Assembly (NCBI RefSeq): GCF_025361915.1
Contig: NZ_JANYJC010000107.1
Span: forward strand, 1-36,694
DNA from: Chamaesiphon sp. GL140_3_metabinner_50
GTDB taxonomy: Bacteria; Cyanobacteriota; Cyanobacteriia; Cyanobacteriales; Chamaesiphonaceae
Direction: 5' to 3'
Length of the DNA stretch: 36,694 nucleotides
Shown: positions 1 through 18,056 of the stretch, piece by piece
Layout of the letters: each line of letters opens with the position of its first letter
Numbering within the stretch: the first letter of the stretch is position 1
The notes under the pieces: generated by a model
Databases searched by the model: none
Told to the model about the DNA's origin: nothing
The model's input: the letters and a program-made list of their open reading frames with translations, nothing else
Program-made: the position numbers and the translations under genes

Positions 1-897
1 AATCGCGCTCGCCTGTGTTAACCTAACCACATCATACAGAATTCGATCGCCATAAAATTTTATCCAAGCAGCTCGCCCAGATTCATAAGCCGCCATTAGT
101 TCCGGTGCAGAATTCCCCACTCCCCGAATATACTCCAGCTCCAATTCATGAGTAGCCAAAGTCTGCACCAGCATCTTCACAGACTTACTCGACTCATTCC
201 CGCCATGATACCGATATTCCGACACCACTCGATCGTGAAAATAAATCGGGTACTCCCGCGCAATCCGCAAAAATAAACCCAAATCCTCTTCACCCACAGG
301 GAATCCCCCCACAGACTCTATCGCCTCTCGCCGAATCATCGCTGTGGCACATTGAATATTATGTTGCGCCGCCAAAATAGTTCCATAACTAGCAACTGGC
401 GGCGGCTCGGCAAACAGCGGTTGAGTACTATAAGAACCGTCAGGATTAATCGATCGAAATACGTATCGCCCAAACACAAACCCCGCTGCTGGATGTTCTT
501 GCAGACAATTTACCCCGATCTTTACCGCGTCAGGGAGCAAGCAATCGTCAGCGTCTAAAAAAATCAGATACGTACCGCGACTTGCTTCGATTCCAGTATT
601 ACGCGCTCCTGGTAAACCTTGATTGCTTTGATAAATATACGTGACTGTCGGATAGCGATCGCACACCGCTTTAGTATCGTCCGTCGAACCATCATCGACG
701 ACAACGATCTCAATTTGTGGATCTTGCCCGTTGGCGTTGGCGAAGCCTCTCGTTCGCAGAGCGTCTCGGAGAGAAGAGAAGCCTCTCCCGTGGAGAATCG
801 CACTCTCGATGGCTGCTGGTAAAAATTCGCTGCTATTGTATGCCGGAATGATGATAGATACGCTCTTTTCGATCGAGTTTTTCAGCGGTTGATGCAT
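1..897 (-). CDS. Glycosyltransferase family 2, 3' end beyond window
   Basis: Manual translation of the minus strand from ATG at 895-897 is open to base 1: MHQPLKNSIEKSVSIIIPAYNSSEFLPAAIESAIL...QIEIVVVDDGSTDDTKAVCDRY...NQGLPGARNTGIEASRGTYLIFLDADD. Classic GT2 motifs. Not in the ORF track because it has no stop inside the window. Confidence 0.92.
   Translation of the reverse strand, partial: MHQPLKNSIEKSVSIIIPAYNSSEFLPAAIESAILHGRGFSSLRDALRTRGFANANGQDPQIEIVVVDDGSTDDTKAVCDRYPTVTYIYQSNQGLPGARNTGIEASRGTYLIFLDADDCLLPDAVKIGVNCLQEHPAAGFVFGRYVFRSINPDGSYSTQPLFAEPPPVASYGTILAAQHNIQCATAMIRREAIESVGGFPVGEEDLGLFLRIAREYPIYFHDRVVSEYRYHGGNESSKSVKMLVQTLATHELELEYIRGVGNSAPELMAAYESGRAAWIKFYGDRILYDVVRLTQASAI
727..792. 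repeat. Palindromic interspersed repeat inserted in frame in the GT2 gene
   Basis: CCGTTGGCGTTGGCGAAGCCTCTCGTTCGCAGAGCGTCTCGGAGAGAAGAGAAGCCTCTCCCGTGG encodes HGRGFSSLRDALRTRGFANANG between the conserved GT2 strands; similar core CGTTGGCGGAGCCTCTC near 18319. Confidence 0.75.
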
Positions 898-1481
898 TAA
901 CTTTTTACTCCCTGTCACGATCTGTCAGTTTTCGCTACTTTGCGGCTGTAATTAATATGGATCGAATTATCAGTTTCTATATTTGGGCACGATCTCGATA
1001 CCCCTGTAGCTTCAGCCGCACGATTAGATTGGAATATGTAAAGGATCGTACAATGCCAAACTTTTACATCAACATGCTGAGTAACGATCTAGACTGCTAG
1101 CAAAAGTTTCAATTATATTATACTATGTAGTTATTGAATTAAGAGCTATCGGGCAACTTACACAGATTTTCTTAATTTTTCCCCAAAATCTGGCAATTAT
1201 CAACAGCCAGATGACTGAATATATCCTGCACAGGTATCTAAGTCCACTGAGATTTAACTTACGACATTCATCTCGATCGTCTAGCCATTAACTAGAATCT
1301 GTAGTTAATATGTTTATATAAATTTAGCTGCGCGATCGTTGACATTGTTCGTTGTTTTTAGCGATGATAAAACATATTATTCTCACTAAAGTATCTTTAA
1401 CAAATATCACAGATTATTCGTGACTGAGATCACTGCAAGAAGTTTATTTGACTCCATATCACATACTTTCGGAGCGATCGC

Positions 1482-2942
1482 ATGACCGAGTTAAAAAAAA
1501 CCGACCCCATCATCAATCTTTGGCAGACCGAAGATATTCGCGCGACAAATTTGGCAATTCGCTGGCGGACACCGCTAATGGTGCTGCGATCGCTCATGCT
1601 AATTACGCTCGATGCTACGATGTTATTTGGATCGTGGACGATTGCCGACAGGCTCGGTACGCCAACTTTGGGGAGACATATTTCAGATGCGCTGGTACCT
1701 ATTCTCGCAGTTAGCGTCGGCACTCTGATGGCTTCCGGGTTTTATGGTACCGATGATAAGTTACATCGATTTTCTAAATTATTAAAATCACTAACGTTGG
1801 CGCAGTTAATGATTTTAATCGCGGCGTTCTTTTATCATCCAGGACTGTGGTGGGTGTCGCGTTCGGTGTTTGTGTGCGCGTGGGTGTTGAATTTTCTATT
1901 CATCAGCTCGGCTAGATTTTTCTTCGATCTAGTCACAATTCAGATTCGCAAACGCAATCCAGCTTTACAGCAAGCGGTCGTACTAATTGGCGACCGCTCG
2001 GACATCGATAAGGTGAGTAAATTGCTCGATCGCTCTCAACAATTCAGAGTCGATAGTATCATCGACTTATCGCTATGGGACATCCAAAAACAATTAGACC
2101 AAATAATCGATCGCATTCGATCGCGCAAAATTAGCGAAGTATTTATTTGTTCTCAGCAGCTAATTGACAATCAAATTATTCTATTTTGGAATCTCAAAGC
2201 CGCCGGAATTCACCTGCGAGTAGTGCCGACAGAGCTGCAACTACCCCAACGGGCATCTGAGACCAAAATGATCGAAGAAATCCCCACCGTTCGCTTTAAA
2301 TCTTTGGCGATTTTTGGGTTCAATTTTTGGTTGAAACGTTTGTTTGACAAAATTTCTGCTTGCGTCCTATTAATTCTGTTATCGCCGATTTTGGTGACGA
2401 TCGCAATTCTCATCAAACGCTCTTCACCTGGTACTATTTTTTACAGACAGTACCGCGTCGGTCTCAAAGGTCATCGGTTCCGCGTCTGGAAATTTCGGAC
2501 GATGGTTGCCAATGCTAGCGAACTCCAAAAGCAACTAGAAGCACAAAATGAAGTCAAAGGTGGCGTTCTATTTAAAATTAAAGAAGACCCTCGGATTACC
2601 AAAATTGGTAAATTCCTCCGCGATTATAGCTTAGATGAATTACCACAATTATTCAACGTTTTACAAGGACAAATGAGTCTTGTCGGCCCGCGCCCGATCG
2701 CTGTCCGGGATTACGAGCTATCGATCCAAGACGTTAAAGATCTCGATCGCGACAGGTTTCTACGATACGAAGTTTTACCTGGAATTACCGGACTGTGGCA
2801 GGTGAAAGGACGCAGTAGCAGCGATTCCGAAGAGATTTTTTATTGGGATATGGTTTACATTCTCCAATGGTCGCTCGCGCTCGATTTAAAGATTTTACTC
2901 GAAACAATCAGAGTAGTGTTGTTTAAAGAAGGATCTTGTTAA
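1482..2942 (+). CDS. Exopolysaccharide biosynthesis polyprenyl glycosylphosphotransferase (WcaJ/CpsE-like sugar transferase)
   Basis: N-terminal membrane helices; C-terminal bacterial sugar transferase motifs KRLFDKISACVLLILLSP, VWKFRTMVANA, SLDELPQLFNVLQGQMSLVGPRPI, LPGITGLWQVKGRSS. Confidence 0.93.
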   Translation: MTELKKTDPIINLWQTEDIRATNLAIRWRTPLMVLRSLMLITLDATMLFGSWTIADRLGTPTLGRHISDALVPILAVSVGTLMASGFYGTDDKLHRFSKLLKSLTLAQLMILIAAFFYHPGLWWVSRSVFVCAWVLNFLFISSARFFFDLVTIQIRKRNPALQQAVVLIGDRSDIDKVSKLLDRSQQFRVDSIIDLSLWDIQKQLDQIIDRIRSRKISEVFICSQQLIDNQIILFWNLKAAGIHLRVVPTELQLPQRASETKMIEEIPTVRFKSLAIFGFNFWLKRLFDKISACVLLILLSPILVTIAILIKRSSPGTIFYRQYRVGLKGHRFRVWKFRTMVANASELQKQLEAQNEVKGGVLFKIKEDPRITKIGKFLRDYSLDELPQLFNVLQGQMSLVGPRPIAVRDYELSIQDVKDLDRDRFLRYEVLPGITGLWQVKGRSSSDSEEIFYWDMVYILQWSLALDLKILLETIRVVLFKEGSC

Positions 2943-2945
2943 GTT

Positions 2946-2972
2946 AGTGGATAGTGGATAGTGAATAGTGGA
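2946..2972. repeat. 7-bp short tandem repeat (GGATAGT-type)
   Basis: gtggatagtggatagtgaatagtggat. Confidence 0.8.
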
Positions 2973-3068
2973 TGTGACACTAAGAATGTAGTATAAATCG
3001 ATCGCGGACGATCGGATTACAATTGGGTTTAGGAGTGGAGGCTCAATAATCTCCAATATTTCTAACTC

Positions 3069-4430
3069 ATGAATAGCCGTAAATATTTAGTGTTGATGGC
3101 TGTCGCGATCTCCATCATCACGCCAAGTGCGATGGGTTTACTGCAAGGAAATCACTGCTGGCAAATGATTCCGGTCTTTGTATCTGCTAGTATTTTGATG
3201 TTAGTTGCCGGATTAGGGCAATTAAAGCTAATTATTTCCACACCCTGGCTATTTCCAGCCTCGATCGGTTTGGGACTAATTGGTGCCACAACTTCGGCAA
3301 TTCTATTTTACCTGTACCCAATCTTCACATTTCCAGTACCGACTGGTCGGTATGCTGTCGGCACGATCTCGATCGATTTAGTCGATAAATCCCGGATTGA
3401 ATTGTGCGATCCGACTACCACTAATGCCAATCGAGAATTAGTCGTTCGCGTCTGGTACCCGGCAATCGCCAATAATAACAGCCCAAAAACTCCTTACATT
3501 GAAGATCCACGGTTAATTCCGTCAGGGTTATTCAGTCATTTGAGATTGGTGAAAACTCATGCCATTCCAGCGGCACCGATCGCCACGACGGCGACTCCAT
3601 ACCCCATAATTATTTATACTCCCTCATGGGGCGGCTCTAAAACCGATAATACCTTTCAAACTCAAGAGTTAGCCAGTCAAGGTTATGTCGTCATCGGTTT
3701 AGAACATGCTTGTTCGGTACCGATGGCGATTTACCCCAGCGGTAGAGTCATTCGCAGCAATTTAGCTGCCGATTACACGTCTTCTGATGCCGCGATGGCA
3801 AAGTTCCTCACCGTCGCCCGATCGCAATTAGATCTCAGAACTCAAGATGTGCGGTTTATACTCGATCGATTGCCAGAATTGAACGCTACTCATCAGCTCT
3901 TAACAGGTAAGCTCAACCTCAGTAAAATTGGGATTTTCGGGCCTTCGTTTGGCGGCGCGGTTGCAGCACAAGCATGTTCGCTCGATGCACGGCTCAAAGC
4001 TGGGTTGAATATGGATGGCTTAATGTTTAGCTCGTCTGCACAAACAGGTGCAACGCAACCATTCTTATTCATGAATTCCGATTATCCCCGTCCTACTACT
4101 GCCGAACTCCGCTCTACGAATGGTAAGAAGCGACGCGCGCAACAAACCGATGAATGGGGATTCCAGCAGCGGGAACGATGGTTTCAGCAGCATGGCGGCT
4201 ACAATCTCACCCTCTTGGGTGCCGCTCACATGAATTTTGCTGATTCTCCATTGAAATCGCGGTTTGGCAATGGTGGCGGTAAAATTTCGCCCGAACGCGC
4301 AATGCAGATTATTAATCAATATACGGTGGCATTTTTCGATCGCCATCTCAAACAAATCGATTCGTCACTACTCACACCCAAATCTACCAGTCCCTTTCCT
4401 GAAGTAATCTTTCAAAATTTTAGGCTTTAG
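3069..4430 (+). CDS. Alpha/beta hydrolase with N-terminal membrane helices (PAF-acetylhydrolase/dienelactone hydrolase-like)
   Basis: IIIYTPSWGGSKTDNTFQTQELASQGYVVIGLEH and nucleophile elbow GIFGPSFGGAVA; His region LLGAAHMNFAD. Confidence 0.8.
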   Translation: MNSRKYLVLMAVAISIITPSAMGLLQGNHCWQMIPVFVSASILMLVAGLGQLKLIISTPWLFPASIGLGLIGATTSAILFYLYPIFTFPVPTGRYAVGTISIDLVDKSRIELCDPTTTNANRELVVRVWYPAIANNNSPKTPYIEDPRLIPSGLFSHLRLVKTHAIPAAPIATTATPYPIIIYTPSWGGSKTDNTFQTQELASQGYVVIGLEHACSVPMAIYPSGRVIRSNLAADYTSSDAAMAKFLTVARSQLDLRTQDVRFILDRLPELNATHQLLTGKLNLSKIGIFGPSFGGAVAAQACSLDARLKAGLNMDGLMFSSSAQTGATQPFLFMNSDYPRPTTAELRSTNGKKRRAQQTDEWGFQQRERWFQQHGGYNLTLLGAAHMNFADSPLKSRFGNGGGKISPERAMQIINQYTVAFFDRHLKQIDSSLLTPKSTSPFPEVIFQNFRL

Positions 4431-4475
4431 GTTTTAGGTTTTAGGCTTTAGGCTTTAGGCTTTAGGCTTTAGGCG
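4419..4475. repeat. 7-bp short tandem repeat (TTTAGGC)n
   Basis: About eight tandem heptamers ttaggct/ttaggtt immediately at the stop codon of the hydrolase. Confidence 0.9.
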
Positions 4476-4489
4476 TTGGAACTGCGTTC

Positions 4490-4513
4490 CTTACTTCTTA
4501 CTTCTTACTCTCT
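4490..4513. repeat. 7-bp short tandem repeat (TTACTTC)n
   Basis: ttacttcttacttcttactct. Confidence 0.85.
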
Positions 4514-4521
4514 AATCCCCA

Positions 4522-4546
4522 ATACCCGACTAAAATAGTCGGGTAT
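4522..4546 (+). terminator. Hairpin, possible terminator
   Basis: Perfect inverted repeat ATACCCGACTA-AAA-TAGTCGGGTAT, followed by a weak T run. Confidence 0.5.
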
Positions 4547-4623
4547 ATTTGACGGCTCGATCGAGCCATGATAAGCTTATTTTCAACAAGTAGACGGATA
4601 TCTAATCACCACTGCCTCCAACC

Positions 4624-5922
4624 ATGACCCAAGCAACCTTAAACAGCAACAGAACGACTGCCGCCAAAGGACTAGCCTGTAAAGAGTGCGGTACAGAGTA
4701 CGAACTCAAAGCCACCCACATTTGCGAACTCTGCTTCGGGCCATTGGAAGTGCAATATGATTATGATTACCTCCGTACTAAGGTGACTCGCGAGAGCATC
4801 AAAGCAGGCCCCAACTCGATTTGGCGGTACAAAGATTTACTCCCCGTTCCCGACGAGCATATCGTCGATGTCGGTACCGGGATGACACCATTACTTAAAG
4901 CCAATCGGTTGGCGCGTCGCCTAGGCTTAAAAAATCTCTACATTAAAAACGATGCTGTAAATATGCCCACCTTGAGCTTCAAGGATCGGGTGGTATCGGT
5001 GGCACTTTCCAAAGCTAAAGAATTTGGCTTCTCAACTATTTCTTGTGCGAGTACTGGTAACTTAGCCAACTCCACCGCAGCGATCGCGGCTCATGCAGGC
5101 TTAGAATGTTGTGTATTCATCCCAGCAGACCTCGAAGCAGGTAAAGTCCTGGGCACGGTCATTTATGGCCCCACTGTCATGGCAGTTCAAGGCAACTACG
5201 ACCAAGTAAATCGCCTCTGTTGTGAAGTTGCCAACACATATGGTTGGGGATTTGTCAATATCAATCTTCGCCCTTACTACTCCGAAGGTTCCAAAACCCT
5301 CGGCTATGAAGTCGCCGAACAACTCGGCTGGCAATTACCCGACCACATCGTCGCGCCATTAGCTTCTGGTTCGTTATTTACCAAAATTCACAAAGGCTTC
5401 CAAGAATTTGTCAAAATCGGCTTAGTCGAAGATAAACCAGTTCGGTTCAGCGGCGCACAAGCTGAAGGCTGTTCGCCGATCGCTCAAGCATACGCCGCAG
5501 GTCGCGATTTTGTCACCCCAGTCAAACCCAATACGATCGCTAAATCGATCGCAATTGGCAACCCCGCTGACGGCATTTACGCACTAGAGCTCGCCCGCAA
5601 AACCAACGGTAATATCGAATCCGTCACCGATGCCGAAATCATCGAAGGGATGAAACTACTCGCAGAAACTGAAGGCATTTTCACTGAAACTGCTGGTGGT
5701 ACCACCATTGCCGTCCTCAAGAAGCTCGTGGAAGCTGGTAAAATCAACCCCGACGAAACGACCGTAGTTTACATCACTGGTAACGGACTCAAAACCCAAG
5801 AATCGATTCAAGGCTACGTTAGCGAACCCTTCCAAATCGAAGCCAAACTAGATAGCTTTGAACGTGCGCTCGAACGCTCCCAAACACTCGATCGCCTCGA
5901 CTGGGCACAAACACAAGTCTAG
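4624..5922 (+). CDS. thrC: Threonine synthase
   Basis: N-terminal zinc ribbon CKECGTEYELKATHICELC; PLP fold type II motif NMPTLSFKDRVVSVALSKAKEFG, ASTGNLANSTAAIAAHAG; full-length 432 aa. Confidence 0.95.
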   Translation: MTQATLNSNRTTAAKGLACKECGTEYELKATHICELCFGPLEVQYDYDYLRTKVTRESIKAGPNSIWRYKDLLPVPDEHIVDVGTGMTPLLKANRLARRLGLKNLYIKNDAVNMPTLSFKDRVVSVALSKAKEFGFSTISCASTGNLANSTAAIAAHAGLECCVFIPADLEAGKVLGTVIYGPTVMAVQGNYDQVNRLCCEVANTYGWGFVNINLRPYYSEGSKTLGYEVAEQLGWQLPDHIVAPLASGSLFTKIHKGFQEFVKIGLVEDKPVRFSGAQAEGCSPIAQAYAAGRDFVTPVKPNTIAKSIAIGNPADGIYALELARKTNGNIESVTDAEIIEGMKLLAETEGIFTETAGGTTIAVLKKLVEAGKINPDETTVVYITGNGLKTQESIQGYVSEPFQIEAKLDSFERALERSQTLDRLDWAQTQV

Positions 5923-6000
5923 GCTTTAGGCTTTGGAACTGCGTTCCAGATTCTTAATAATTACACTTCTTACTTCTTACTTTTTTCTCCCATCTCCTTC

Positions 6001-6276
6001 ATGACTGTTAAAGTATTAATCCCTACTGCACTCCAAAAATTTACCAGCGATCGCGCGACGATCGAATGTAATGGTAATAGTATTGCTGAGTTATTAGATG
6101 CCCTTGAATCTGACTGTCCCGGTGTGAAAGCCAGATTGTGTGATGGAGCTGGTCAATTACGAAGATTTCTCAATCTCTATGTCAATGACGAAGATATTCG
6201 CTTCCTGGATGGTACGAATACACTACTCAACGATGGCGACCAAGTAAGTATCGTTCCGGCTGTAGCTGGCGGCTAG
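6001..6276 (+). CDS. MoaD/ThiS-family ubiquitin-like sulfur carrier protein
   Basis: 91-aa beta-grasp-sized protein ending [14 protein letters not shown] (C-terminal Gly-Gly). Confidence 0.88.
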
Positions 6277-6450
6277 ATTAGATCGATCGTTCCAAAAAAC
6301 CCTAACTTATCTATAAAGTCGGGGCTTTTTCTGTTTCCCGTTTTGCTACGCACCGATCGAATATAGTGCGATCGCCTATTTTGTAGTCGTGGTGGGCAGC
6401 TTGGATTTCGGCAATGTCATCAGGTGAATTCTCATCATCTGAAAATAATT

Positions 6451-6475
6451 CAGCTTCTGTATGTATCAGAAGCTG
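6451..6475. repeat. Perfect inverted repeat, 9-bp arms, 7-nt loop
   Basis: CAGCTTCTG-tatgtat-CAGAAGCTG. Confidence 0.85.
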
Positions 6476-6483
6476 GTATTTTT

Positions 6484-6510
6484 CAGCAATTTCATTACTA
6501 GAAATTGCTG
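6484..6510. repeat. Perfect inverted repeat, 10-bp arms, 7-nt loop
   Basis: CAGCAATTTC-attacta-GAAATTGCTG. Confidence 0.85.
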
Positions 6511-6525
6511 CTAGCAACAATTGAA

Positions 6526-6921
6526 ATGATGCGATATCAACAAGCTCTCAAACATCGATCGATTTGGTCGCATGGCCCTATTATTGGAACGATCGGACGA
6601 ATTGTTTATCTAAGTTTATGGGTGAGTTTGATCGGTCTATTTTGGCTGAGAATAGCTCAGTTCATTGGCATCAAGACATATACCGGACAACAGTTATTAG
6701 TTATTCTACAACAATCGATCGCTAAAAATTCTGCGATTTATATAGCTTTATTTTGCGGTCTAGAATTGGGCGCAATGAGTCACTACCTGAGCGATTGGTT
6801 GGTCTCGACATATAAGCGGTCTCCATTTCGTAATCTCGATGCTCGTAAGTCAACCTTAAAAGTAGCTAGCAAGCCCAAAAAGGTGCCTACTAAATCGAAT
6901 GGAAAATCGCGAGTTAGATAA
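6526..6921 (+). CDS. Hypothetical membrane protein
   Basis: ORF 6505..6921; start at 6526 (MMRYQQALKHR) looks more natural than 6505. Two hydrophobic segments. Confidence 0.5.
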   Translation: MMRYQQALKHRSIWSHGPIIGTIGRIVYLSLWVSLIGLFWLRIAQFIGIKTYTGQQLLVILQQSIAKNSAIYIALFCGLELGAMSHYLSDWLVSTYKRSPFRNLDARKSTLKVASKPKKVPTKSNGKSRVR

Positions 6922-6957
6922 CCCACTATACAGCTAATATCCACCATTCACTAATTT

Positions 6958-7893
6958 ATGAATATAGTAGACAAGACATACTTAGAAATCCTCGACCGCA
7001 TCCTAGCAGAAGGAAGCAGAGAAACTAACCGCACGGGTACCGATACCGTCTCATTATTCGGGCTGAGTTATCGGCTACCTGTTACGGCTGAAGCCTTCCC
7101 AATTTTGACTCATAAAAAGATTCAATGGCGCAGCTTAGTAACAGAATTAATTTGGTACCTATCTGGCGAACCACATATTCGCAATCTCAAACAGCATACT
7201 AAAATTTGGGATGCATGGAGCGATGCGGATGGTAATTTAGAAACTGCTTACGGTAGGTTCTGGCGATATTATCCAGTTCCCGGTTATGCGGCTCCGATTC
7301 GGCGCGATAATAGCAACTATTTATGCGATGGCGAATCGTTGGTTAATCTAACCGACAGCAAATATCGACACGATCTAATTATCGATACCGAGCAAAATTT
7401 AGTTTTGCCCTGTTTCGATCAATTTAGATGGGCGATAGATGAATTAAAACGTAATCCTCGATCGCGTAGATTGCATATTACAGCTTGGTATCCACCCAAT
7501 GCAACCATGAGTAAGCTACCACCTTGCCATCATAGTTTTACGTTAAATTATCAAGGTGGTAAATTAAATTTACATCTGCAACAACGCTCCTCAGATCATT
7601 GTGTTGGTAATCCTTTCAATTTAACTTGTTATTCATTACTACTACTACTAATTTGCCGAGAAGTTAATCTCATACCAGGAGATTTTTATCACTCGATTAC
7701 CGATGCACATGTATATGTCGATCATATCGAACCCTATCAGGCTGCTAGCCGCGAGACTTATGATTTACCGCAATTAGATTTGAGTCAATTAGGCGATCGA
7801 TCGATGTTCGATCTGACTTATGATGATATCGATCGGATTCAGTTAGTTAATTATCAACATGGTGCATTTATTAAATTACCTGTAGCTGTTTAG
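6958..7893 (+). CDS. thyA: Thymidylate synthase (ThyA type)
   Basis: YLEILDRILAEGSRETNRTGTDTVSLFG; WRSLVTELIWYLSGE; catalytic Cys in LPPCHHSFTL; LHLQQRSSDHCVGNPFNLTCYSLLL; DAHVYVDHIEP. Confidence 0.95.
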   Translation: MNIVDKTYLEILDRILAEGSRETNRTGTDTVSLFGLSYRLPVTAEAFPILTHKKIQWRSLVTELIWYLSGEPHIRNLKQHTKIWDAWSDADGNLETAYGRFWRYYPVPGYAAPIRRDNSNYLCDGESLVNLTDSKYRHDLIIDTEQNLVLPCFDQFRWAIDELKRNPRSRRLHITAWYPPNATMSKLPPCHHSFTLNYQGGKLNLHLQQRSSDHCVGNPFNLTCYSLLLLLICREVNLIPGDFYHSITDAHVYVDHIEPYQAASRETYDLPQLDLSQLGDRSMFDLTYDDIDRIQLVNYQHGAFIKLPVAV

Positions 7894-7909
7894 AAAATAG
7901 AGTCATAAA

Positions 7910-8473
7910 ATGGTACAAAAAATTCTGATTGCGGCGATCGATAAAGATGGTGGTATTGGTAAAGATGGTTACATGCCTTGGCATTATCCAGCCGATCTAA
8001 AACTATTTATGAATCTAACGATGGGTAATACGATCGTGATGGGCAGAAAGACATTTGATGGTATGTTCGATCGCGAGAAAGTTCCATTAAAGGGCAGACA
8101 AAATATTATTGTGACATCTAAGGTTGCCGAATATCGATCGCAATTTGCAGATAAATATCCATCATCGGAACTAGGTTTCACTGACGACCTGAATTGTGGC
8201 GATGTAGAATTAGCTAAAGACACCAAAATATTTTATTGTGGCGGTGCTAATCTCTACCAGCAAACAATCGATACTGTCGATATGATGTATCTATCGCGTC
8301 TGGAAGATAGTTATGATTGCGATACTTTTTTTCCGCAAGATCCGCAGTCGTTAGGTCAAGAATTTGCTCCATATATTCCAGCTTATATGGCTAAGAGTTT
8401 TTCCGATCGCATGGCAGGTAAAAAATCTTTTACTTTTGAGATCTATGCGCCTAAGCCATTAATTATTTATTAA
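7910..8473 (+). CDS. folA: Dihydrofolate reductase
   Basis: ILIAAIDKDGGIGKDGYMPWHYPADLKLFMNLTMGNTIVMGRKTFDGM; FYCGGANLYQQTI. Confidence 0.92.
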   Translation: MVQKILIAAIDKDGGIGKDGYMPWHYPADLKLFMNLTMGNTIVMGRKTFDGMFDREKVPLKGRQNIIVTSKVAEYRSQFADKYPSSELGFTDDLNCGDVELAKDTKIFYCGGANLYQQTIDTVDMMYLSRLEDSYDCDTFFPQDPQSLGQEFAPYIPAYMAKSFSDRMAGKKSFTFEIYAPKPLIIY

Positions 8474-8690
8474 TATTTTGGTATTTAGCTAACTAGCAAT
8501 TGAAATAGATTTTAGGTAATTTACGATAAAAATATACGATCTGAACTATGACTTATTTGATTAATAGATGAACTAAAATTGTCGGATAGCAGTCCATTAA
8601 AGTCCATCAGTCAATCATTTTAATCATAGTTTAGACGATATTAGAGGAGGATTATTTCCAGGAATTACCTCGATCTATCAACACATAATT

Positions 8691-9356
8691 TTAATGATGT
8701 GAAAAAATATCCTCATACTGCAATATATCTAGCGCAACCAACGTAGGCAACACCTTAAAACAGTCCTGCGCTAGTTCCCACCGATCTTCGCGTTGCAACT
8801 TGGCAGTCAATTTTTGACGCATACTAATTAAATATCGAACATCATTAGCCGCATAGCGGAGTTGGTGTTCCGAGAGATTTTCGGCATCGCCCCAATCGGA
8901 ACATTGAGCAGATTTGTCGAGATCGACACCTTCGAGTTGAGATACTAATTCCTTCAAACCATGACGGTTTGAGTAGGTACGAATCAGTTTACTAGCAATT
9001 TTAGTACAAAATATTGGCTGAGTTTCGATACCCAAACGGTAACTGAGTTGTGCCACATCGAATCTGGCAAAATGAAAAACCTTCGTAACGGTGGTAGATT
9101 GCATCACCTGTTGTAAATTTGGTGCGGTTGTTTGTCCTTTGGCAATCCGAATTACCGTCAGGGCACCAGGTGAAAATAATTGTACTAAGCACAGCCTGTC
9201 GCGATGATAGTTCAATCCCATTGTCTCAGTATCGACAGCGATCGATTCTGCCTGGAGATATTTGGCAGTGAGAGCATCATCTAGATCTCGATCGCAAATT
9301 TGAAAGTCTTCCATATTGAGAGCTGGTGAGATAGCACGATCTACATCATAAGACAT
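8691..9356 (-). CDS. Ribonuclease D-like 3'-5' exonuclease
   Basis: DEDDy motifs: AVDTETMGLNYHRDRLCLVQL; VFHFARFDVAQL; YAANDVRYLISMRQKL. Confidence 0.9.
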   Translation of the reverse strand: MSYDVDRAISPALNMEDFQICDRDLDDALTAKYLQAESIAVDTETMGLNYHRDRLCLVQLFSPGALTVIRIAKGQTTAPNLQQVMQSTTVTKVFHFARFDVAQLSYRLGIETQPIFCTKIASKLIRTYSNRHGLKELVSQLEGVDLDKSAQCSDWGDAENLSEHQLRYAANDVRYLISMRQKLTAKLQREDRWELAQDCFKVLPTLVALDILQYEDIFSHH

Positions 9357-9359
9357 AGA

Positions 9360-9965
9360 CTAGTCAGCATCTTTAACGTACCAAGCTTTGCGAATAAATA
9401 TTTGTGTAAAGTAATATTCGCCCTTAGAGTTTTGGACGATGCCGATGCCAGTAAGATCGTATGGCCCTGTCATATTATCTTGGTGTCCGGGACTTTCGAT
9501 CCAGCCTTGAACGGCAACTAAATCTGGTTGTCCGTAGCCCATATTGTAAGCCACATTCTCGGCAGCCTTACGGTAGACGATCGTCTGCGCGATCGAATCC
9601 GCACGTTCGTGAAAACCGTCATGATTCATATTCCGATCCCTAGCCATCTTTTCGCTATGTGCCTTAGCCTGAGCCGAAATAGCTGGATCGATTGTCAGTG
9701 GTGGTAAATTGCGAGACTGGCGATATTTATTGACTAGGTTATAAGTGTCCAATTCTAAGCGAGTTAGCACAGGGTTAGATGTCGATTGAGGATTATTGTA
9801 GGCGCGTTTGGTCGGCGCGGCAGTTTCTGGAGGAGCTTCTTGCCCAGTGGCGGCACTAATCGATCGATCGGCGGGTATACTAATGCTAATATCGGCACGA
9901 ACTGTTGCTGTTATCCCCAAGACGGTAGCAACTACACAGAAAGTGCCCAAAAAACCGTATTTCAT
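9360..9965 (-). CDS. CAP (SCP/PR1)-domain secreted protein
   Basis: Signal peptide MKYGFLGTFCVVATVLGITATVRA; YNLVNKYRQSRNLPPLTIDPAISAQAKAHSEKMA; VQGWIESPGHQDNMTGPYDLTGIGI. Confidence 0.9.
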   Translation of the reverse strand: MKYGFLGTFCVVATVLGITATVRADISISIPADRSISAATGQEAPPETAAPTKRAYNNPQSTSNPVLTRLELDTYNLVNKYRQSRNLPPLTIDPAISAQAKAHSEKMARDRNMNHDGFHERADSIAQTIVYRKAAENVAYNMGYGQPDLVAVQGWIESPGHQDNMTGPYDLTGIGIVQNSKGEYYFTQIFIRKAWYVKDAD

Positions 9966-10185
9966 CTGAATTTACTCAACTTGTGTAGATCTAGCCGTAG
10001 GAGTAGTAAATGTCGCTAGGTCGTCAGCAACTGCGCCTGTGGTTAAACCCAAGATGACATCAAAATTTACAATCCACTGCGATCGATCTCACTATATAAG
10101 GATGTAATCTGAGAATCGATCGACTTCGATCGTCTTGCCTGAGAATTCGCTAAAATAGTAACTAAGATCGCTTGAGACTATCACT

Positions 10186-10875
10186 ATGACATCCTATTCT
10201 GCTGCCTCTGCTCGCGCTGAAATGAGTGAATTGCGTCGGCTTAAAAGCTTGCTGCCACCCGAATTGCAAAGCTGGGTAACGGTAGAAACTACCGTCGAAG
10301 TCAATCCGCCTTTGGTGCGGAGTGAAGAATTGGGCAAAGATCAAGTCGAAATTCAGATCGATTTAGTCAAGTGGGAACGTCTGGCTCTGGATCAACGCAA
10401 TTTATTGTTCTGGCATGAAGTCGCCCGCGTTCAAAACGATACAATCTCGCGCGATGGCTGGGAAATGGCTGCGCTGGCGATCGGTTTAGGCGGTGCTGTG
10501 GGAGAGTTATGGGTACAGGATGGGTTGCTACTAATCCTGGCTCTGGGACTATGCGGCGTGTCTGGGTATCGGCTCTATTCTCGCAATAATAGCGATCGAC
10601 ATCTCAAAGAAGCCATCGATGCCGATGAAAAAGCGATCGCCCTAGCCACCCGCTTTGGATACACGCTCCCCAATGCTTACAAGAGTCTGGGCAGTGCCTT
10701 AAAAACTCTCACTGATGATACTCCTAAAAAGAGCAAACGCAAGCACTATGAGTCCCGTCTCGATGCACTCAAACGCAGTGCTACTAAAGCCAAAGATAAA
10801 GTCGATCGCAATCGGACTTCTACTCGCTCCCGCGCGCTAGCAGACGATCGTGAGAATCGCGAAAGCTATCGATAA
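10186..10875 (+). CDS. DUF3318-family cyanobacterial protein
   Basis: SELRRLKSLLPPELQSWVTVE...LLFWHEVARVQND; typical cyanobacterial membrane protein architecture. Confidence 0.8.
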   Translation: MTSYSAASARAEMSELRRLKSLLPPELQSWVTVETTVEVNPPLVRSEELGKDQVEIQIDLVKWERLALDQRNLLFWHEVARVQNDTISRDGWEMAALAIGLGGAVGELWVQDGLLLILALGLCGVSGYRLYSRNNSDRHLKEAIDADEKAIALATRFGYTLPNAYKSLGSALKTLTDDTPKKSKRKHYESRLDALKRSATKAKDKVDRNRTSTRSRALADDRENRESYR

Positions 10876-10970
10876 ACACGCTGATGCTGCAAATCAGGGT
10901 AGGGGCAATTCATGAATTGCTACTACCCTAGATTTTTATGGGAAATCTTTGGGACGATCGAGATCGCATC

Positions 10971-11008
10971 AAAAAGCCCGACTGCTTTCAGCAAGAATCG
11001 GGCTTTTT
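10971..11008. terminator. Bidirectional intrinsic terminator between convergent genes
   Basis: AAAAAGCCCGA ... TCGGGCTTTTT with nested TGCT-ttc-AGCA. Confidence 0.85.
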
Positions 11009-11035
11009 AACACATACTTATTAATAGAACTCAAT

Positions 11036-11587
11036 TTAGACAGCTAATTCTAATAAAGCTGGATGTGGATTAGTACCAGTTAGAATGAGCCGGAGATCTG
11101 TAGGGATCTTGGTGAGAAAATCGAGCGCGGCTTCGATACTAATTAACCCCAACTCGATCGATAGACTTAGATCGTCTAAAATCAACAAAGAATATTCACT
11201 CGATCGATCGTTATTAGTAGCAGATCCAGCTACATTGCGAACGTGCTTCCATAACTGCTCGAAATTGTGTAATTCTAGATCGTTTAAATCGGAGATCGAA
11301 ATATTCCGAATTAAATTGCAACGAATCCAATCTAGATTTTGAGCCAGATTGACAATGCGATCGTGTCCTTGCCAAATGCCACCTTTAAGTAGTTGGACGA
11401 TTAATACTCTTTGTCCCGTACTGGCAAGTTTAAGTGCATTAGCAACGATCTCGGTGCAAAATCGATCGGCTGGTGTATCGATAATCTCGATATGTTTGTG
11501 AAGTGGTGCTGAATCGGGATGAAGTGAAGTGTTACGATTAAGCGCAGAATTTTCTGGATGACTATTTAGTTGTGCAATCATATTCAA
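11036..11587 (-). CDS. P-loop-NTPase-like protein, BtuR/CobO-related fold with degenerate Walker A
   Basis: GQRVLIVQLLKGG, YSLLILDDLSLSIELGLISIEAALDFLTKIPTDLRLILTGTNPHPALLELA resembles BtuR C-terminal half; no GxxxxGK(S/T) near the N-terminus. Confidence 0.7.
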   Translation of the reverse strand: MNMIAQLNSHPENSALNRNTSLHPDSAPLHKHIEIIDTPADRFCTEIVANALKLASTGQRVLIVQLLKGGIWQGHDRIVNLAQNLDWIRCNLIRNISISDLNDLELHNFEQLWKHVRNVAGSATNNDRSSEYSLLILDDLSLSIELGLISIEAALDFLTKIPTDLRLILTGTNPHPALLELAV

Positions 11588-11787
11588 CGTAAAATGAGCC
11601 GCGTTTCATTCAAAAGGTGTACTATTACAGGCGATTCCTGTCCAGCTCGGCAGTCTATAGTAGACAATATATAGCGTTTCGTTCCGTGCGCTTATCCAGT
11701 GAAACACTAAATATACGATCGGTCAAGTAGTACTTAATAGCTAGTAGCTCGATCTGGTTTCCGATCTTCATTCTCCCTGAATTCTAC

Positions 11788-12531
11788 ATGCAACGCCAAG
11801 ACCGCCAACCGAATAAATTACGTCAAGTGAGCTTCCAGAGCGGCTTTACCAAATTTGCTACCAGTTCTGTATTGACTAGGTGTGGCGACACGCAGGTACT
11901 GTGTACCGTCACCATAACCAACGGCGTACCCAGGTTTTTGGCAGGAACGGGGACAGGCTGGCTGACAGCCGAATACCGAATGCTACCGGGTGCGACACCC
12001 CAACGTCACGAGCGCGAACTGATGAAGTTATCGGGACGCACGCAAGAAATCCAAAGACTCATCGGTCGGAGTTTGCGATCGACCCTCGATTTTGCCGCCC
12101 TGGGAGAGAAAACAATCCTAGTTGATGCAGATGTCCTCCAGGCAGATGCAGGCACCCGCACGACGGCAATAACTGGCGGATACGTGGCATTAGTGCAAGC
12201 TATCCATCGACTCGTGAAGCGGGGAGAATTGAGTCACTCGCCAATCGTTCGTCAAGTTGCAGCGGTGTCGGTGGGCTTAGTTGCTGGGAGCGCGTTTTTA
12301 GATCTGGACTACCCAGAAGATGTCGCGGCTGATGTCGATTTTAATGTGGTAATGACCGATAATCGGGAATTAATTGAGGTGCAGGGCACGGCAGAATCGG
12401 GGAGTTTTAGCCGCCAGCAACTGAATGAGTTGCTAGATCTTGCCGATACGGGAATTCAGGAATTGATGGCGATGCAAAATGCCGAAATTGCTGCGACGAC
12501 TGGTAATACGGTTCGGTTAGTCAGCGACTGA
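11788..12531 (+). CDS. rph: Ribonuclease PH
   Basis: [90 protein letters not shown]. Confidence 0.95.
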
Positions 12532-12722
12532 AGTCGCCGCTAATGATGCAAAGTCCGCCTTCGCGGACTAGTTTATTAGACTTCCTGCAAAAGTTAGGGG
12601 CTAGGGAATAGGAAAAGTTTTAGATGAAAACAGTATTGAAAAAGGTTGTGTTTTTACTTTCGCAGGAGATCTATTAGTCCGCGTAGGCGGACTTTGCAAC
12701 ATCAGCCACGACTTCAGTCGTA
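12524..12722. repeat. Compound palindromic element with a nested MITE-like insertion
   Basis: Left arm CGACTGAAGTCGCCGCTAATGATGCAAAGTCCGCCTTCGCGGACTA is matched by the reverse complement of the right arm, CGACTGAAGTCGTGGCTGATGTTGCAAAGTCCGCCTACGCGGACTA; each arm contains its own AGTCCGC-N4-GCGGACT hairpin. Confidence 0.85.
12579..12671. mobile_element. MITE-like element copy 1, TA-flanked
   Basis: Ends GACTTCCTGCAAAAGT...ACTTTCGCAGGAGATC; shares both ends and internal AAACAGTA..TG(T/A)TTTTTACTTTC with 30005-30135. Confidence 0.7.
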
Positions 12723-12746
12723 GGCATTCTCAGGTAGCAACTCAGG

Positions 12747-13760
12747 TTACTTAACCAATTCTTTCAGCGGTAGTTCGCTACCCTGTGACTTTTTTTCCCA
12801 GGCTAAAGCCGTGCGAACGATAATATCGAGATCGTTATACTGTGGTTTCCATCCTAGTGTTTGGGTAATGCGTTCGGCAGCAGCAATCACGCAAGCAGGG
12901 TCGCCAGCACGACGTTCGGCTTCGATAACGGTAAAATCTACACCGGATATCTCTTTGACTTTTTCGATGACTTGGCGGACGCTATAACCCTGTCCGTAGC
13001 CACAGTTGAGAATCTGACTCGCAGCTCGTCCATCGAGATAGATCAGTGCATCTACATGCGCGCGTGCGAGATCGTCAACATGAATGTAGTCACGAATACC
13101 CGTACCATCGGGAGTATCAAAATTGGTACCAAAGATACTCACATTGTCTCGTCTACCTAAAGCTGCATCGCAAGCTACTTTGATCAGGTGCGTGGCTTTT
13201 TTGCCAGATTGTCCTAAGTTTCCGCCAATTTCGGCTCCAGCTACATTAAAATACCTAAGAATGACATATTTAAAATTAGTATTCGCAATCGCATAATCCC
13301 GAATTAACCGTTCGCTCATCAGTTTAGAACTACCATAGGGATTGAGCGGTTCTGGAGCAGTTTCTTCGGTAATCGGGTTGACAGTTGGCTGTCCGTATAC
13401 CGCCGCCGTACTGGAAAAAATAAATTTATTTACGCCAAATTGCTCGCAGCAGTGGAGCAAGTTTAGAGTATTGGCTGTATTATTGCTGTAGTAAGCCAAG
13501 GGCTTAACGACCGATTCTGGGACAGAAATACTGGCAGCAAAGTGTAAAACAGCGTCAAAATTATGTTCTGTAAAGACTCGTTCTAGCTGTTGTCGATCGG
13601 CTAAATCTCCCAAAGCTAGCTTACCAGTAGTTATCGCACTGGTCGTACCTGTAGAAAGATTATCATAGATGACGATTTCATAGCCAGCTCGACCCAATTG
13701 GGCGATCGTGTGAGAACCGATATAACCAGCACCACCAGTAACTAAAATTTGTTGATTCAT
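12747..13760 (-). CDS. galE: UDP-glucose 4-epimerase
   Basis: ILVTGGAGYIGSHTIAQLGRAGYEIVIYDNLSTG; YGSSKLMSERLIRDYA; GTGIRDYIHVDDLARAH. Confidence 0.94.
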   Translation of the reverse strand: MNQQILVTGGAGYIGSHTIAQLGRAGYEIVIYDNLSTGTTSAITTGKLALGDLADRQQLERVFTEHNFDAVLHFAASISVPESVVKPLAYYSNNTANTLNLLHCCEQFGVNKFIFSSTAAVYGQPTVNPITEETAPEPLNPYGSSKLMSERLIRDYAIANTNFKYVILRYFNVAGAEIGGNLGQSGKKATHLIKVACDAALGRRDNVSIFGTNFDTPDGTGIRDYIHVDDLARAHVDALIYLDGRAASQILNCGYGQGYSVRQVIEKVKEISGVDFTVIEAERRAGDPACVIAAAERITQTLGWKPQYNDLDIIVRTALAWEKKSQGSELPLKELVK

Positions 13761-14096
13761 CGGAATTTCAATTGGATAAAATAGGTTACAGGATGGTATT
13801 ACTAATTTAGTGTATTAGTTGTGGCTACTGAGTTACGAATCCTAACGCTGCTAAATACAACTTGGGCTGGCAATCTGTTTAGACATCTAGACAAGATTAA
13901 TATACCTCTTTATTTTATACCAGTGAATCTCCGTGGATGACAAGAGTTAGTTTTGAACTAATTGCGACAATTCAACCTTGACAACCGAGCATCTTGGCGA
14001 TCGCCACTCATATATTTAATAGATATTTAGTATATTTAAGAGGATGGCACGACGATCTGTAATGTCGATCCCGACACTCTGAGTCTGGCTGTCAAA

Positions 14097-14531
14097 CTAC
14101 TTCCATCGTTTAGCTAATAACTGTTCCTCCAATGCCGCAATCCGGTTGTATGCAGCAGTTAATTGAGCGGTAAGTCGTTGAATCTGAATTTGTGGGGATA
14201 AATCTTGTTCTTTAATTTGGTGGTGACTGATTTCTACGCCACTACTATCGATCAAAACATCCTGTTGGGCAATTACCGATTCACTCTCGCGATGATAATT
14301 AGAGCTGCCAAAGTAGTCTCCATATCCATAGCGACGATAGCTAGAAGCTGGTACGTTACTTGTGGGCGAGAGATCTTCACGGTTGAGCGGATATCTAATC
14401 GAAGTTTCTTCTCCGCCAACATTCGGGGAATCGAGCGTCTCGAAGACATGTTGGTTCAATCGATCGACGATCTGATAGACTCGATCGACCTTCCGGGTCA
14501 AGGTACTAATCTGTTGTTGGATTGATTCCAT
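14097..14531 (-). CDS. Hypothetical protein with terminal coiled-coil segments
   Basis: MESIQQQISTLTRKVDRVYQIVDRLNQ N-terminus and IQRLTAQLTAAYNRIAALEEQLLAKRWK C-terminus. Confidence 0.55.
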   Translation of the reverse strand: MESIQQQISTLTRKVDRVYQIVDRLNQHVFETLDSPNVGGEETSIRYPLNREDLSPTSNVPASSYRRYGYGDYFGSSNYHRESESVIAQQDVLIDSSGVEISHHQIKEQDLSPQIQIQRLTAQLTAAYNRIAALEEQLLAKRWK

Positions 14532-14739
14532 CTTTTACCTTACAATAACTTTCAATAAGTTTAGATACTAAATTGAAATTTGGTGACTTATTGCTGAATT
14601 ATTTAACTTTTGATAAGTACAACAATCTTAATTATTAATTAATTATGGAACTGGATTTAGACGCTCGCCAGCAAATATAGATTATTATGTGAGTAACTTT
14701 AATTGAGCGAATGTCAATATTGAAATTATTACTAAAAAA

Positions 14740-15369
14740 ATGCTAGAAATTCAAGACTTTTTTGCAGATTGTGTCGGCACCTGGAAGACCGAGCGGACGT
14801 ATCATTATCCGCGCCATAATGAGGTAGAACGCTCATATACCGAATTTAACGTAGCTGGATTGGAAGCTGCCGAAAAATATCAAATTTCTTCAGCTTTTTT
14901 ACCACTTGGTAGCATGGAAGCCTCGACACAGATCGATCTATTTCCTGGATTTAGGATCGACTTCAATACAGTGTCAGAAAAAGGGGAGCGAGTCGCCATG
15001 AACCTAAAAGCTCTATTTGTGCCCGATCGATCTATTAGTAAGCCCGATCTACTGCCGAGCGATCCACTTGCACCAGCTCTCCCCTTAGTCGCCGAAATTC
15101 CCGATAGTCCCGAACTAATCAGAGGTTTATATTTACGAGATGAAGGGTATTTAGAATCTGGGACGATTACTGGTCGATTTACCTATCAACCCACTCGGCA
15201 AACTTTAGAATTAGTCACATATTACAGTCGATCGGTGGCAGTCGATCGGCTGCAATTAATAAATTCTCACTCGCGACTGCGGACGATAGTGACCTATCGC
15301 CGTCCCGAACCCGGCGCGGTACCTACAGAAATCGATTTAGTTGGATTTGGATTAGAGCAAAAATCTTAG
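14740..15369 (+). CDS. CpcS/CpeS-family phycobiliprotein lyase-like protein
   Basis: DFFADCVGTWKTERTYHYPRHNEVERSYTEFNV; calycin-like lyase length and pattern. Confidence 0.72.
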   Translation: MLEIQDFFADCVGTWKTERTYHYPRHNEVERSYTEFNVAGLEAAEKYQISSAFLPLGSMEASTQIDLFPGFRIDFNTVSEKGERVAMNLKALFVPDRSISKPDLLPSDPLAPALPLVAEIPDSPELIRGLYLRDEGYLESGTITGRFTYQPTRQTLELVTYYSRSVAVDRLQLINSHSRLRTIVTYRRPEPGAVPTEIDLVGFGLEQKS

Positions 15370-15395
15370 GGATGGGAGATGGGAGATGGGAGGTT
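15368..15395. repeat. 7-bp short tandem repeat (GATGGGA)n
   Basis: gggatgggagatgggagatgggag. Confidence 0.85.
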
Positions 15396-15402
15396 AAACT
15401 CC

Positions 15403-16104
15403 ATGAGTGAATTCGAGCAAATTGGTAATTTTCAGTTACTGCCAGCGGAACTGTTACCACTCTTGAAAAGATATCAACTGCTACCAGGAATCGTCCGCGA
15501 AATGACGATCGATCGGGCGATTATCGGCGTTGAGTGTAGCGATGACGAGCAAATTGTCGCGCTCAAGCAATTTTACGATCGCGAAAGCTTGACAACGGAA
15601 GAGCGGCTGCAATATTGGCTTAATTTTCATTATTTGGATCGTCAACAATTAGCCGAAATCGCAATTCGTCAGTTTAAAATTGCGAAATTCAAACAGCAAA
15701 CTTGGGGTCATCAAATATCCTCCCATTTTCTCAAACGCAAAGGGCAACTAGATCGGATTATCTATTCATTAATTCGGACTAAAGAGCTAGGCATCGCCCA
15801 AGAAATCTATTTTAGATCGATCGCAGGCGAACAAAGTTTTACAGAGCTTGCTACTGCATATTCTGAAGGTGCTGAGTCGCAAACTGGCGGACTAATCGGC
15901 CCTGTAGAAATTAGCGTACCGCATCCCGCGATCGCCCAGGCAATTGCGACTCAACCATTAGGGCAGGTTTGCCCGCCGATGCACCTGGAAGAATGGTATG
16001 TCGTCGTGCGTCCCGAAAAAATTATTCCCGCTCAATTAGACGAACCAATGCGCCAACGGCTGCTCGATGAATTATTTCAGATTTGGCTGCAAGAGCAAAT
16101 TTAG
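15403..16104 (+). CDS. PpiC/SurA-type peptidylprolyl isomerase-like protein
   Basis: ORF 15379..16104; AQEIYFRSIAGEQSFTELATAYSEGAESQTGGLIGPVEISVPHPAIAQAIATQPLGQV parvulin pattern. The ORF-track start at 15379 lies in the heptamer repeat, so 15403 (MSEFEQIG) is preferred. Confidence 0.75.
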   Translation: MSEFEQIGNFQLLPAELLPLLKRYQLLPGIVREMTIDRAIIGVECSDDEQIVALKQFYDRESLTTEERLQYWLNFHYLDRQQLAEIAIRQFKIAKFKQQTWGHQISSHFLKRKGQLDRIIYSLIRTKELGIAQEIYFRSIAGEQSFTELATAYSEGAESQTGGLIGPVEISVPHPAIAQAIATQPLGQVCPPMHLEEWYVVVRPEKIIPAQLDEPMRQRLLDELFQIWLQEQI

Positions 16105-16151
16105 TTGGGAGATGGGAGTAAGGAGTACAGTTCGGCTATCGCTCACTGACC

Positions 16152-16195
16152 GGAGTAAGGAGTAAGGAGTAAAGAGTAAAGAGTAAGGAGTGTGG
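16152..16195. repeat. 7-bp short tandem repeat (GAGTAAG/GAGTAAA)n
   Basis: ggagtaaggagtaaggagtaaagagtaaagagtaaggagt. Confidence 0.88.
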
Positions 16196-16224
16196 GGAAG
16201 CTTGAGGCGACTGAGTTATTTAAA

Positions 16225-16264
16225 GATTCACTATCCACTATCCACTATTCACTATTCACTATCC
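16225..16264. repeat. 7-bp short tandem repeat (ACTATCC/ACTATTC)n
   Basis: ttcactatccactatccactattcactattcactatccc. Confidence 0.88.
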
Positions 16265-16267
16265 CCT

Positions 16268-17437
16268 TTACACACAAGCTAATTGTGGAATTTGGCGGGC
16301 GAGAATTTGTTTTAATGCCATCGCCGTCCAGTCGATATCTTCCACGGTGGTGCCTTTGCCGAGCGTGAGTCGAATTCCGCGTACTGCTTCGGTTTGGGTA
16401 TATCCCATCGCCAATAGAATCGGGCTGGGAGTAAGTTTGCCACTGGCACAAGCGGCTCCAGAACTGATGCCGATGCCAGCGAGGTTGAGTTGGCGGACGA
16501 TCGTTTTACCAGTGATGTTTGCTGTGGCATGACAATCGGGCAGGTGCAGACAAAAACTCAGGTGATGGGCGAGGCGGTGTAAGCGATCCCCGGTCGGAAT
16601 TAGGATCGGACAATCAGCTAAGAGATCGAATAAGCGATCGCGCAAACCGATTAGTCGATGATTTTCGGTGGTTAATTCTTCACTAGCTAGCTCTGCGGCG
16701 ATGCCAAATCCAGCGATTTGAGGCACTGCTTGAGTGCCAGATCGCCAGCCCATTTCTTGACCGCCGCCAGCTAATAGGGGCACTAGTTCTAACTCCGGAC
16801 GAATATACAGCGCGCCCGTACCTTGAGGGCCATACAGCTTGTGACTGGAGATTGAGAGTAGATCGATCCCCAGCGCGCGAACATCGATTGCCACTCTGCC
16901 AGCAGCCTGGACGGCATCGGTATGGAAATAAACTCGATACTGTTGACAAATAGCGGCTAATTCGGCGATCGGTTGAATGGTACCGACTTCACTTTGACCG
17001 TAAATTATCGACACCAAAACGGTATTCGGGCGAATTGCCGCAGCCAAATCTTGGGGATCGATCCGTCCCGCGCGATCGACTGGCAATCTAGTTACTTGCC
17101 ACCCTCTACTTTCTAACCAGCGTGCGGGCACTTCGATCGACGAATGTTCGACACTAGAAATAACTAAATGTTGCGGGGTTATATACAAATTGGTCACCCC
17201 TATAATCGCCTGATTATTAGCTTCAGTGCCTCCAGATGTAAAAGCGATCGCGTCGGGGTTAGCATTAATTAATGCTGCTACTTGAAATCTCGCTTGTTCG
17301 AGCGCGGTGGAAGCGCGTTCCCCCCACTGATGGATACTCGAAGGGTTGCCCCATTCTGAAGTGAGAATTCGGTGCATCGTCGCGATCGCTTCAGCGCGCA
17401 TTGGTGTGGTCGCACTATGATCTAGGTAAATCTGCAT
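16268..17437 (-). CDS. Cysteine desulfurase (NifS/IscS family)
   Basis: MQIYLDHSATTPMR; FTSGGTEANNQAI; SISSHKLYGPQGTGALYIRP; ISSGAACASGKLTPSPILLAMG. Confidence 0.94.
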   Translation of the reverse strand: MQIYLDHSATTPMRAEAIATMHRILTSEWGNPSSIHQWGERASTALEQARFQVAALINANPDAIAFTSGGTEANNQAIIGVTNLYITPQHLVISSVEHSSIEVPARWLESRGWQVTRLPVDRAGRIDPQDLAAAIRPNTVLVSIIYGQSEVGTIQPIAELAAICQQYRVYFHTDAVQAAGRVAIDVRALGIDLLSISSHKLYGPQGTGALYIRPELELVPLLAGGGQEMGWRSGTQAVPQIAGFGIAAELASEELTTENHRLIGLRDRLFDLLADCPILIPTGDRLHRLAHHLSFCLHLPDCHATANITGKTIVRQLNLAGIGISSGAACASGKLTPSPILLAMGYTQTEAVRGIRLTLGKGTTVEDIDWTAMALKQILARQIPQLACV

Positions 17438-18049: not shown

Positions 18050-18056
18050 CGTCGAT

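Follow-up and report, generated by a model that had tools for sequence, protein, structure and literature searches.

A hairpin-forming small dispersed repeat probably inserted in frame, at a HIP1 core, within a glycosyltransferase domain of Chamaesiphon

A 22-residue interruption in the glycosyltransferase domain of a Chamaesiphon protein very probably stems from a non-coding mobile micro-element of the small dispersed repeat (SDR) type, a copy of which would have inserted precisely within the HIP1 core CGATCG and then been tolerated and translated. We base this reading on sequence comparisons centered on one contig of Chamaesiphon sp. GL140_3_metabinner_50 (NZ_JANYJC010000107.1), whose 36,694 nucleotides are referred to here as the window. 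An earlier sequence-only reading had described a dispersed palindromic repeat comparable in concept to Rickettsia palindromic elements (RPEs), and this much is borne out, as orthologs lack the insert and about twenty other genes of the genome carry the repeat. Its proposal that the repeat had been domesticated fared less well, since the tested insertions are absent from aligned congeners and the peptide differs among genes. The relevant features of the window are as follows.

1 to 918, minus strand: 5′ part of the gene for a GT2-NRPS/PKS protein (GT2 domain visible), with the contig edge at base 1 and the likely start Met at 897
729 to 730, plus strand: CG, left half of the split target CG^ATCG (HIP1-like core)
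731 to 796, plus strand: 66-nt composite small dispersed repeat in CG^ATCG, encoding 22 residues on the minus strand
731 to 736, plus strand: extra TTGGCG hexamer, a tandem copy of the unit 5′ end, found in all four composite copies
737 to 751, plus strand: TTGGCGAAGCCTCTC, the 5′ part of the outer unit, with hairpin GGC-GAA-GCC and left stem arm TCTC
752 to 787, plus strand: nested module of 36 nt that contains a diverged second unit (CGC-AGA-GCG, TCTC-GGA-GAGA), four copies in nine genomes
788 to 796, plus strand: remainder of the outer unit, with its variable loop (CCGTG) and right stem arm (GAGA)
797 to 800, plus strand: ATCG, right half of the split target CG^ATCG
18320 to 18344, plus strand: second window copy, a simple 25-nt unit, intergenic, between CG and ATCG

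The window gene is open on the minus strand from position 918 to position 1, with zero stops over 306 aa, consistent with the earlier claim of a frame intact over ~900 bp; the contig ends within the gene, so that no more than the first ~306 residues can be read. Its product matches PF00535 (Glycos_transf_2; E = 3e-32), and within this GT2 domain AAIESAI is followed by 22 extra residues (LHGRGFSSLRDALRTRGFANAN) and then by GQDPQIEIVVVDDGS. None of the six relatives that were aligned, comprising five congeners and a protein from another family (L076), has a counterpart of the insert; they pass from AAIESVL or AAIESVI through AQTY, NQTY, or SQTY to the IEIVVVDDGS strand. The in-frame interruption is thus present as first described, but its boundaries, originally placed at 727 to 792, have been corrected to 731 to 796. 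In silico excision of the 66 nt joins GCGAT to CGGG (AAIESAIGQDPQIEIVV), with CGATCG across the junction. No close strain supplied an exact empty site for this gene, for which the nearest ortholog is ~72 to 75% identical and the closest named ortholog is that of C. polymorphus CCALA 037, which is identical in sequence here to its counterpart in the congeneric genome G388.

The C. polymorphus ortholog has a GT2-AMP-binding-PCP-KS organization and is 1,275 aa or longer. Judged by sequence comparison, the host is the N-terminal GT2 domain of a GT2-adenylation-PCP-ketosynthase protein, so that its initial identification as a glycosyltransferase applies to the domain, but not to a stand-alone enzyme. 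Such a pairing of a GT2 domain with an NRPS/PKS module seems uncommon. The remainder of the window gene probably lies on contig C57 of the same genome, where a candidate continuation (G000:C57:2-1372) is 73% identical to the ortholog and has an open frame of 1,805 aa. Given this open continuation, the gene shows no sign of being a pseudogene, the outcome that the sequence-only reading had named as a possible refutation, albeit with ~500 residues between the two parts absent from the assembly.

An AlphaFold2 model of the GT2 region, built from a five-sequence alignment (mean pLDDT, 62.7), has a GT-A fold, with 6p61 as its best PDB match (TM score of 0.83 by target). In this model, a strand at residues 12 to 19 and a helix at 26 to 38 are followed by the insert at ~36 to 57, which is modeled at low confidence, and a strand at 61 to 68. 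The insert thus appears, in the model, to lengthen the alpha-1/beta-2 connection. In GT-A enzymes, this connection faces away from the nucleotide-binding strand ends, which makes tolerance of an insert plausible.

The 16-nt core of the repeat, GTTGGCGnAGCCTCTC, lies at positions 736 to 751 and, as had been noted from the window alone, also in intergenic DNA, at 18319 to 18334. With up to three mismatches allowed, the core has four matches in the window, relative to 0.62 expected. Directly before the second copy, positions 18269 to 18318 hold tandem hexamers related to TTGGCG in reverse orientation (CAACGC/CAACGT); since the composite also carries a TTGGCG duplicate, the 5′ hexamer of the unit tends to expand. 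Intergenic positions 28922 to 28937 hold a diverged core, TTTGGCAAAGCCTTTC, possibly an old decayed unit with the hairpin GGC-AAA-GCC. The 36-nt module that distinguishes the composite (two or fewer mismatches) occurs in only four copies in nine Chamaesiphon genomes, which are spread over three species.

Window: the module copy at 752 to 787
Contig C381 of the window genome: a copy in the 940-aa ORF of a histidine kinase
Contig C3 of genome G391: a copy in a 432-aa ORF, to both sides of which MFS-transporter plasmid records align
Genome G390: a copy in a 509-aa ORF

All four composites are read through in ORFs of more than 300 residues, in four different proteins and three frames. In its site, the composite is open in all six frames, a property equaled by 0.4% of shuffled 66-mers.

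Alignment of the copies yields a 24-nt unit consisting of TT, a hairpin GGC-GNA-GCC, and a hairpin TCTCN1-nnn-N5GAGA, each with a triloop and directly adjacent to one another. The N1 and N5 positions are complementary in 45 of 50 copies of the window genome (G000) and in 69 of 80 copies of G391, relative to ~17 and 28 in shuffles, and all four pair types are used. The outer pair of the first hairpin is G-C in 138 copies, C-G in 12, and mismatched in 1, around a G-N-A loop. Single units fold only slightly more stably than shuffles; stronger evidence for a role of the hairpins in the element comes from these compensatory changes. The insert had also been called palindrome rich, a description that suits its small repeated hairpins but not a single long palindrome: the RNA fold of 720 to 800 is at the shuffle level (z = −0.07), and the DNA fold of the 66-mer is likewise.

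The sequence-only reading had proposed searching the genome for the repeat and counting its in-frame copies. In the window's own genome, a 3.86-Mb draft of 394 contigs, the 16-mer occurs 81 times exactly and 156 times with up to one mismatch (reversed control, 0). The 24-nt pattern TTGGCGnAGCCTCTCnnnnnGAGA is present at 11 to 80 copies per genome in nine Chamaesiphon genomes, the window genome included, with no match to the reversed pattern; the genome with 80 copies of the unit that is assembled in 3 contigs is G391. The unit also travels inside bigger repeats, given that it occupies a fixed place within two families of larger intergenic repeats, GGGTTCCCCCC...TATAAAAAA and CCTTATCCC...AACTCACG (loci L010, L029, L056, L058, and L064 and loci L005, L043, L055, and L068).

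Outside the genus, the 16-mer was found in other cyanobacterial families (33 of 386 genomes). Copies in G118 and G002 read GAGAATCGC and resemble the Chamaesiphon unit. Those of family f6 were rejected as the same repeat: most of the copies read continue with GTAGAGAAG or similar and do not split a HIP1 site, so they represent a related but distinct repeat. In f6 and related genomes (L187 to L202), many copies of a related core, GTTGGCGCAGCCTCTC, which continues with GTAGAGAAG or CAAGAGTTG, lie outside HIP1 and look like another small repeat family.

The boundaries of the unit are sharply defined by its target. The C of CG precedes 76 of 79 copies, canonical copies end GAGA|ATCG, and 39 of the 50 canonical copies have exactly 24 nt from CG to ATCG. 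Among the 50 24-nt copies, CG^ATCG is complete in 39 and CG alone is present in 49. Full HIP1, GCGATCGC, is often absent at the sites, where the core CGATCG is present with outer bases T or C on one side and A or C on the other; since the outer bases are often not G and C, CGATCG is the better description of the target. One study gives CGATCG as a methyltransferase recognition sequence (PMC4390886). Orthologous empty sites, consisting of CGATCG or GCGATCGC, were found at the exact place of insertion at L122 (GGCGATCGCGAG) and at L110 and L112 (GCGATCGATCG). Within the window genome, a larger intergenic repeat is empty at L035, CCTTATCCCG^AACTCACG (CCTTATCCCGAACTCACG), and filled at L005, L055, and others, where the unit follows CCCG. 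No target-site duplication was seen in any of these comparisons of empty and filled sites, whether orthologous (L122, L110, and L112) or intergenic (L035 against L005 and L055). In a DUF3084 gene of G391 (L146; C1:6026600-6027400), the ortholog of L051, an apparent decayed insert with the opposite reading direction (KDAHSERLSQRQ) lies at nearly the same residue, which suggests that one HIP1 site may have been used repeatedly.

These properties bear on the question of what moves the unit. A REP element mobilized by a RAYT transposase of the GTAG type would be compatible with our main explanation, and it is suggested by the small hairpin with a GNAG motif beside its stem, by the Y1_Tnp-type genes found in 8 of 9 Chamaesiphon genomes, and by the degenerate tags known in GTAG families (PMC3733652). 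We nevertheless consider it improbable. The G-N-A-G motif is internal to the unit rather than terminal, and T fills its tag position in only ~50% of copies (T in 68, G in 36, A in 29, and C in 10; n = 143). Moreover, both sides of the target are conserved, and a scan of 20 Y1_Tnp loci revealed few with a unit nearby and no consistent pattern of association. A unit with the loop CTGCG does adjoin a Y1_Tnp-like gene in two species (L218, G390:C31; L230, G389:C155), perhaps as a shared older copy.

Many copies lie in genes. In the window genome, 21 of 80 copies are embedded 30 or more residues deep in ORFs of 180 aa or longer, the edges of which may include miscalled starts; in G391, 6 of 18 checked copies are similarly deep in ORFs. 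The genes hit include those for a histidine kinase, a PknG-type kinase, a TrpRS/TyrRS-family synthetase (TrpRS below), a nitrite/sulfite reductase-type protein, a DnaX-type clamp loader, PhyH, a Rieske oxygenase, a SpoU methylase, and an OprB porin. When twelve genes, including the window gene, were aligned with their congeners, the insert stood out as an extra stretch. Orthologs without the insert show exact 8-residue gaps for TrpRS (8 orthologs), the reductase (6), PknG (4 of 5), the histidine kinase (4), PhyH (3), L064 (3), and SpoU (1). L013 (PIG-L) was discarded as a clean insertion, its orthologs being too divergent there for a clean gap.

The length of the insert is divisible by three in 20 of the 21 deep-ORF copies (24 nt, 66 nt, or, in L062, 39/45 nt), compared to 29 of 49 copies outside ORFs (P = 0.002, Fisher test), although this test is partly circular, as frameshifted genes go uncounted, and the ortholog alignments are its independent part. 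Copies of 25 nt are common outside ORFs but not within them. The copies in genes use at least five of the six frames, giving peptides such as VGVASPxENR, SLAEPLxxRI, RWRSLSxEN, DSxxERLRQR, and AILxxRGSAN, which vary among genes because the frames and strands differ. Its length of 24 nt, divisible by three, and the lack of stops in most of its frames allow the unit to sit in genes, where its insertion usually adds 8 codons.

Tentatively, the repeat may go further and constitute a frame-safe cassette, in which the length (24 nt, or 66 nt for the composite), the stop-free sequence, and a HIP1 core that is abundant in coding DNA would together yield a steady supply of in-frame insertions of 8 or 22 residues in cyanobacterial proteins, these properties having been shaped by selection for an element that does no harm in genes. 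We regard this proposal as a whole as doubtful.

Domestication, in which the peptide would have gained a function, such as that of a regulatory or binding loop, and been kept by selection, appears very unlikely. The frame is intact over 306 aa, the composite is itself intact, and all four composites lie in ORFs, as this explanation would have it. However, the composites occupy unrelated proteins in three frames, so most of the peptides differ, and 0 of 12 well-aligned insertions in the window genome are common to aligned congeners. The low confidence with which the insert is modeled also argues against a functional loop.

Still less probable is the removal of the insert from the mRNA, or its skipping by the ribosome, as an intron-like or bypassing element that leaves the protein unaffected. 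The unit can form hairpins and is present in conserved, probably essential genes (TrpRS and DnaX). Nevertheless, a multiple-of-three length in genes is needed for translation of the insert, not for excision or ribosomal bypass, for which length would be irrelevant; the length bias of the copies in genes and the confinement of common 25-nt copies to DNA outside ORFs therefore speak against this explanation, as do the zero Rfam matches in positions 1 to 20000 of the window. The least credible alternative, an assembly or binning artefact or a local duplication instead of a mobile repeat, could appeal to the fragmented draft and to a gene that ends at a contig edge, but the unit is in 9 of 9 genomes of the genus, the 3-contig assembly among them, and one composite recurs at four unrelated loci in three species.

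We therefore favor insertion of a mobile non-coding repeat followed by tolerance and translation. In the sequence of events that we propose, the unit would enter the HIP1 core precisely at CG^ATCG and leave the target unduplicated. Its movement may proceed via a hairpin-forming intermediate of single-stranded DNA (HUH type) or RNA, which we infer from the hairpins and the absence of target duplication. Insertions that break frames or proteins would be purged, whereas those in tolerant surface loops would persist, their translation yielding inert peptides. On this view, the 22 residues in the alpha-1/beta-2 connection of the window GT2 domain would stem from a 66-nt composite.

If so, a free-living bacterial group carries Rickettsia-like repeat insertions in core genes, with a far smaller unit and a known target motif, and HIP1 sites in genes serve as entry points for mobile DNA. 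Since TrpRS, PknG, and other enzymes have both filled and empty orthologs, what a random 8-residue insertion costs and how new protein segments might be seeded by selfish DNA are directly testable. For annotation, short lineage-specific inserts of this kind are real sequence and not frameshifts.

Several known systems resemble the Chamaesiphon repeat. REP and REPIN elements with RAYTs share small hairpins and tens of copies per genome, and some REPs lie inside ORFs, including those of DNA repair and tRNA synthetase genes (PMC3733652, PMC3116915). In contrast, the Chamaesiphon unit carries no terminal GTAG/CGTC tag, shows no RAYT link in the loci seen, and targets the HIP1 core. Classification as a MITE was rejected because the repeat has neither a target-site duplication nor long terminal inverted repeats. 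RPEs and their Wolbachia counterparts are likewise dispersed and palindromic, with in-frame copies in conserved genes that are unrelated to one another (PMC2229807, PMC10969869), and an RPE-bearing guanylate kinase stays active (PMC2229807). They differ in their length of ~100 to 150 nt and their conserved coding frame, and they are not known to target HIP1, whereas the Chamaesiphon repeat is 24 or 66 nt, uses at least five frames, and has a different sequence. By analogy, the Chamaesiphon repeat would work like an RPE, yet it is not one.

The closest likeness is to the SDRs, a class that the sequence-only reading had not named and of which SDR5 and others were reportedly described in Nostoc and relatives by Elhai et al. 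in 2008 (cited in PMC4390886). SDR units are ~21 to 27 nt in size. A sister unit, GCG^TAGGCGNAGCCCGCCGNAGGC^ATCGC, with a 21-nt core of 7 codons, occurs in 20 of the 110 genomes searched in the order, with zero control matches. Its first hairpin, GGC-GNA-GCC, is identical to that of the Chamaesiphon unit, and the sister unit may be SDR5 itself. Ten of 33 sampled matches to the sister unit lie deep in ORFs; among loci L251 to L280 it sits in frame in ORFs, such as that of a histidine kinase (L268), which reads FYRVDGD-AYGGLRL-RSRKTGGTGLGL. The Chamaesiphon repeat shares the size class of SDR5 and its precise insertion point between nucleotides 3 and 4 of HIP1 (GCG^ATCGC) (PMC4390886). It differs in its host, in its length (24 nt rather than 21), apparently in its second hairpin, TCTCN-nnn-NGAGA, in a target that is often the CGATCG core only, and in the presence of 66-nt composites. 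By its site, size, and hairpin plan, the repeat belongs with the cyanobacterial SDRs as a putative new SDR5-like family.
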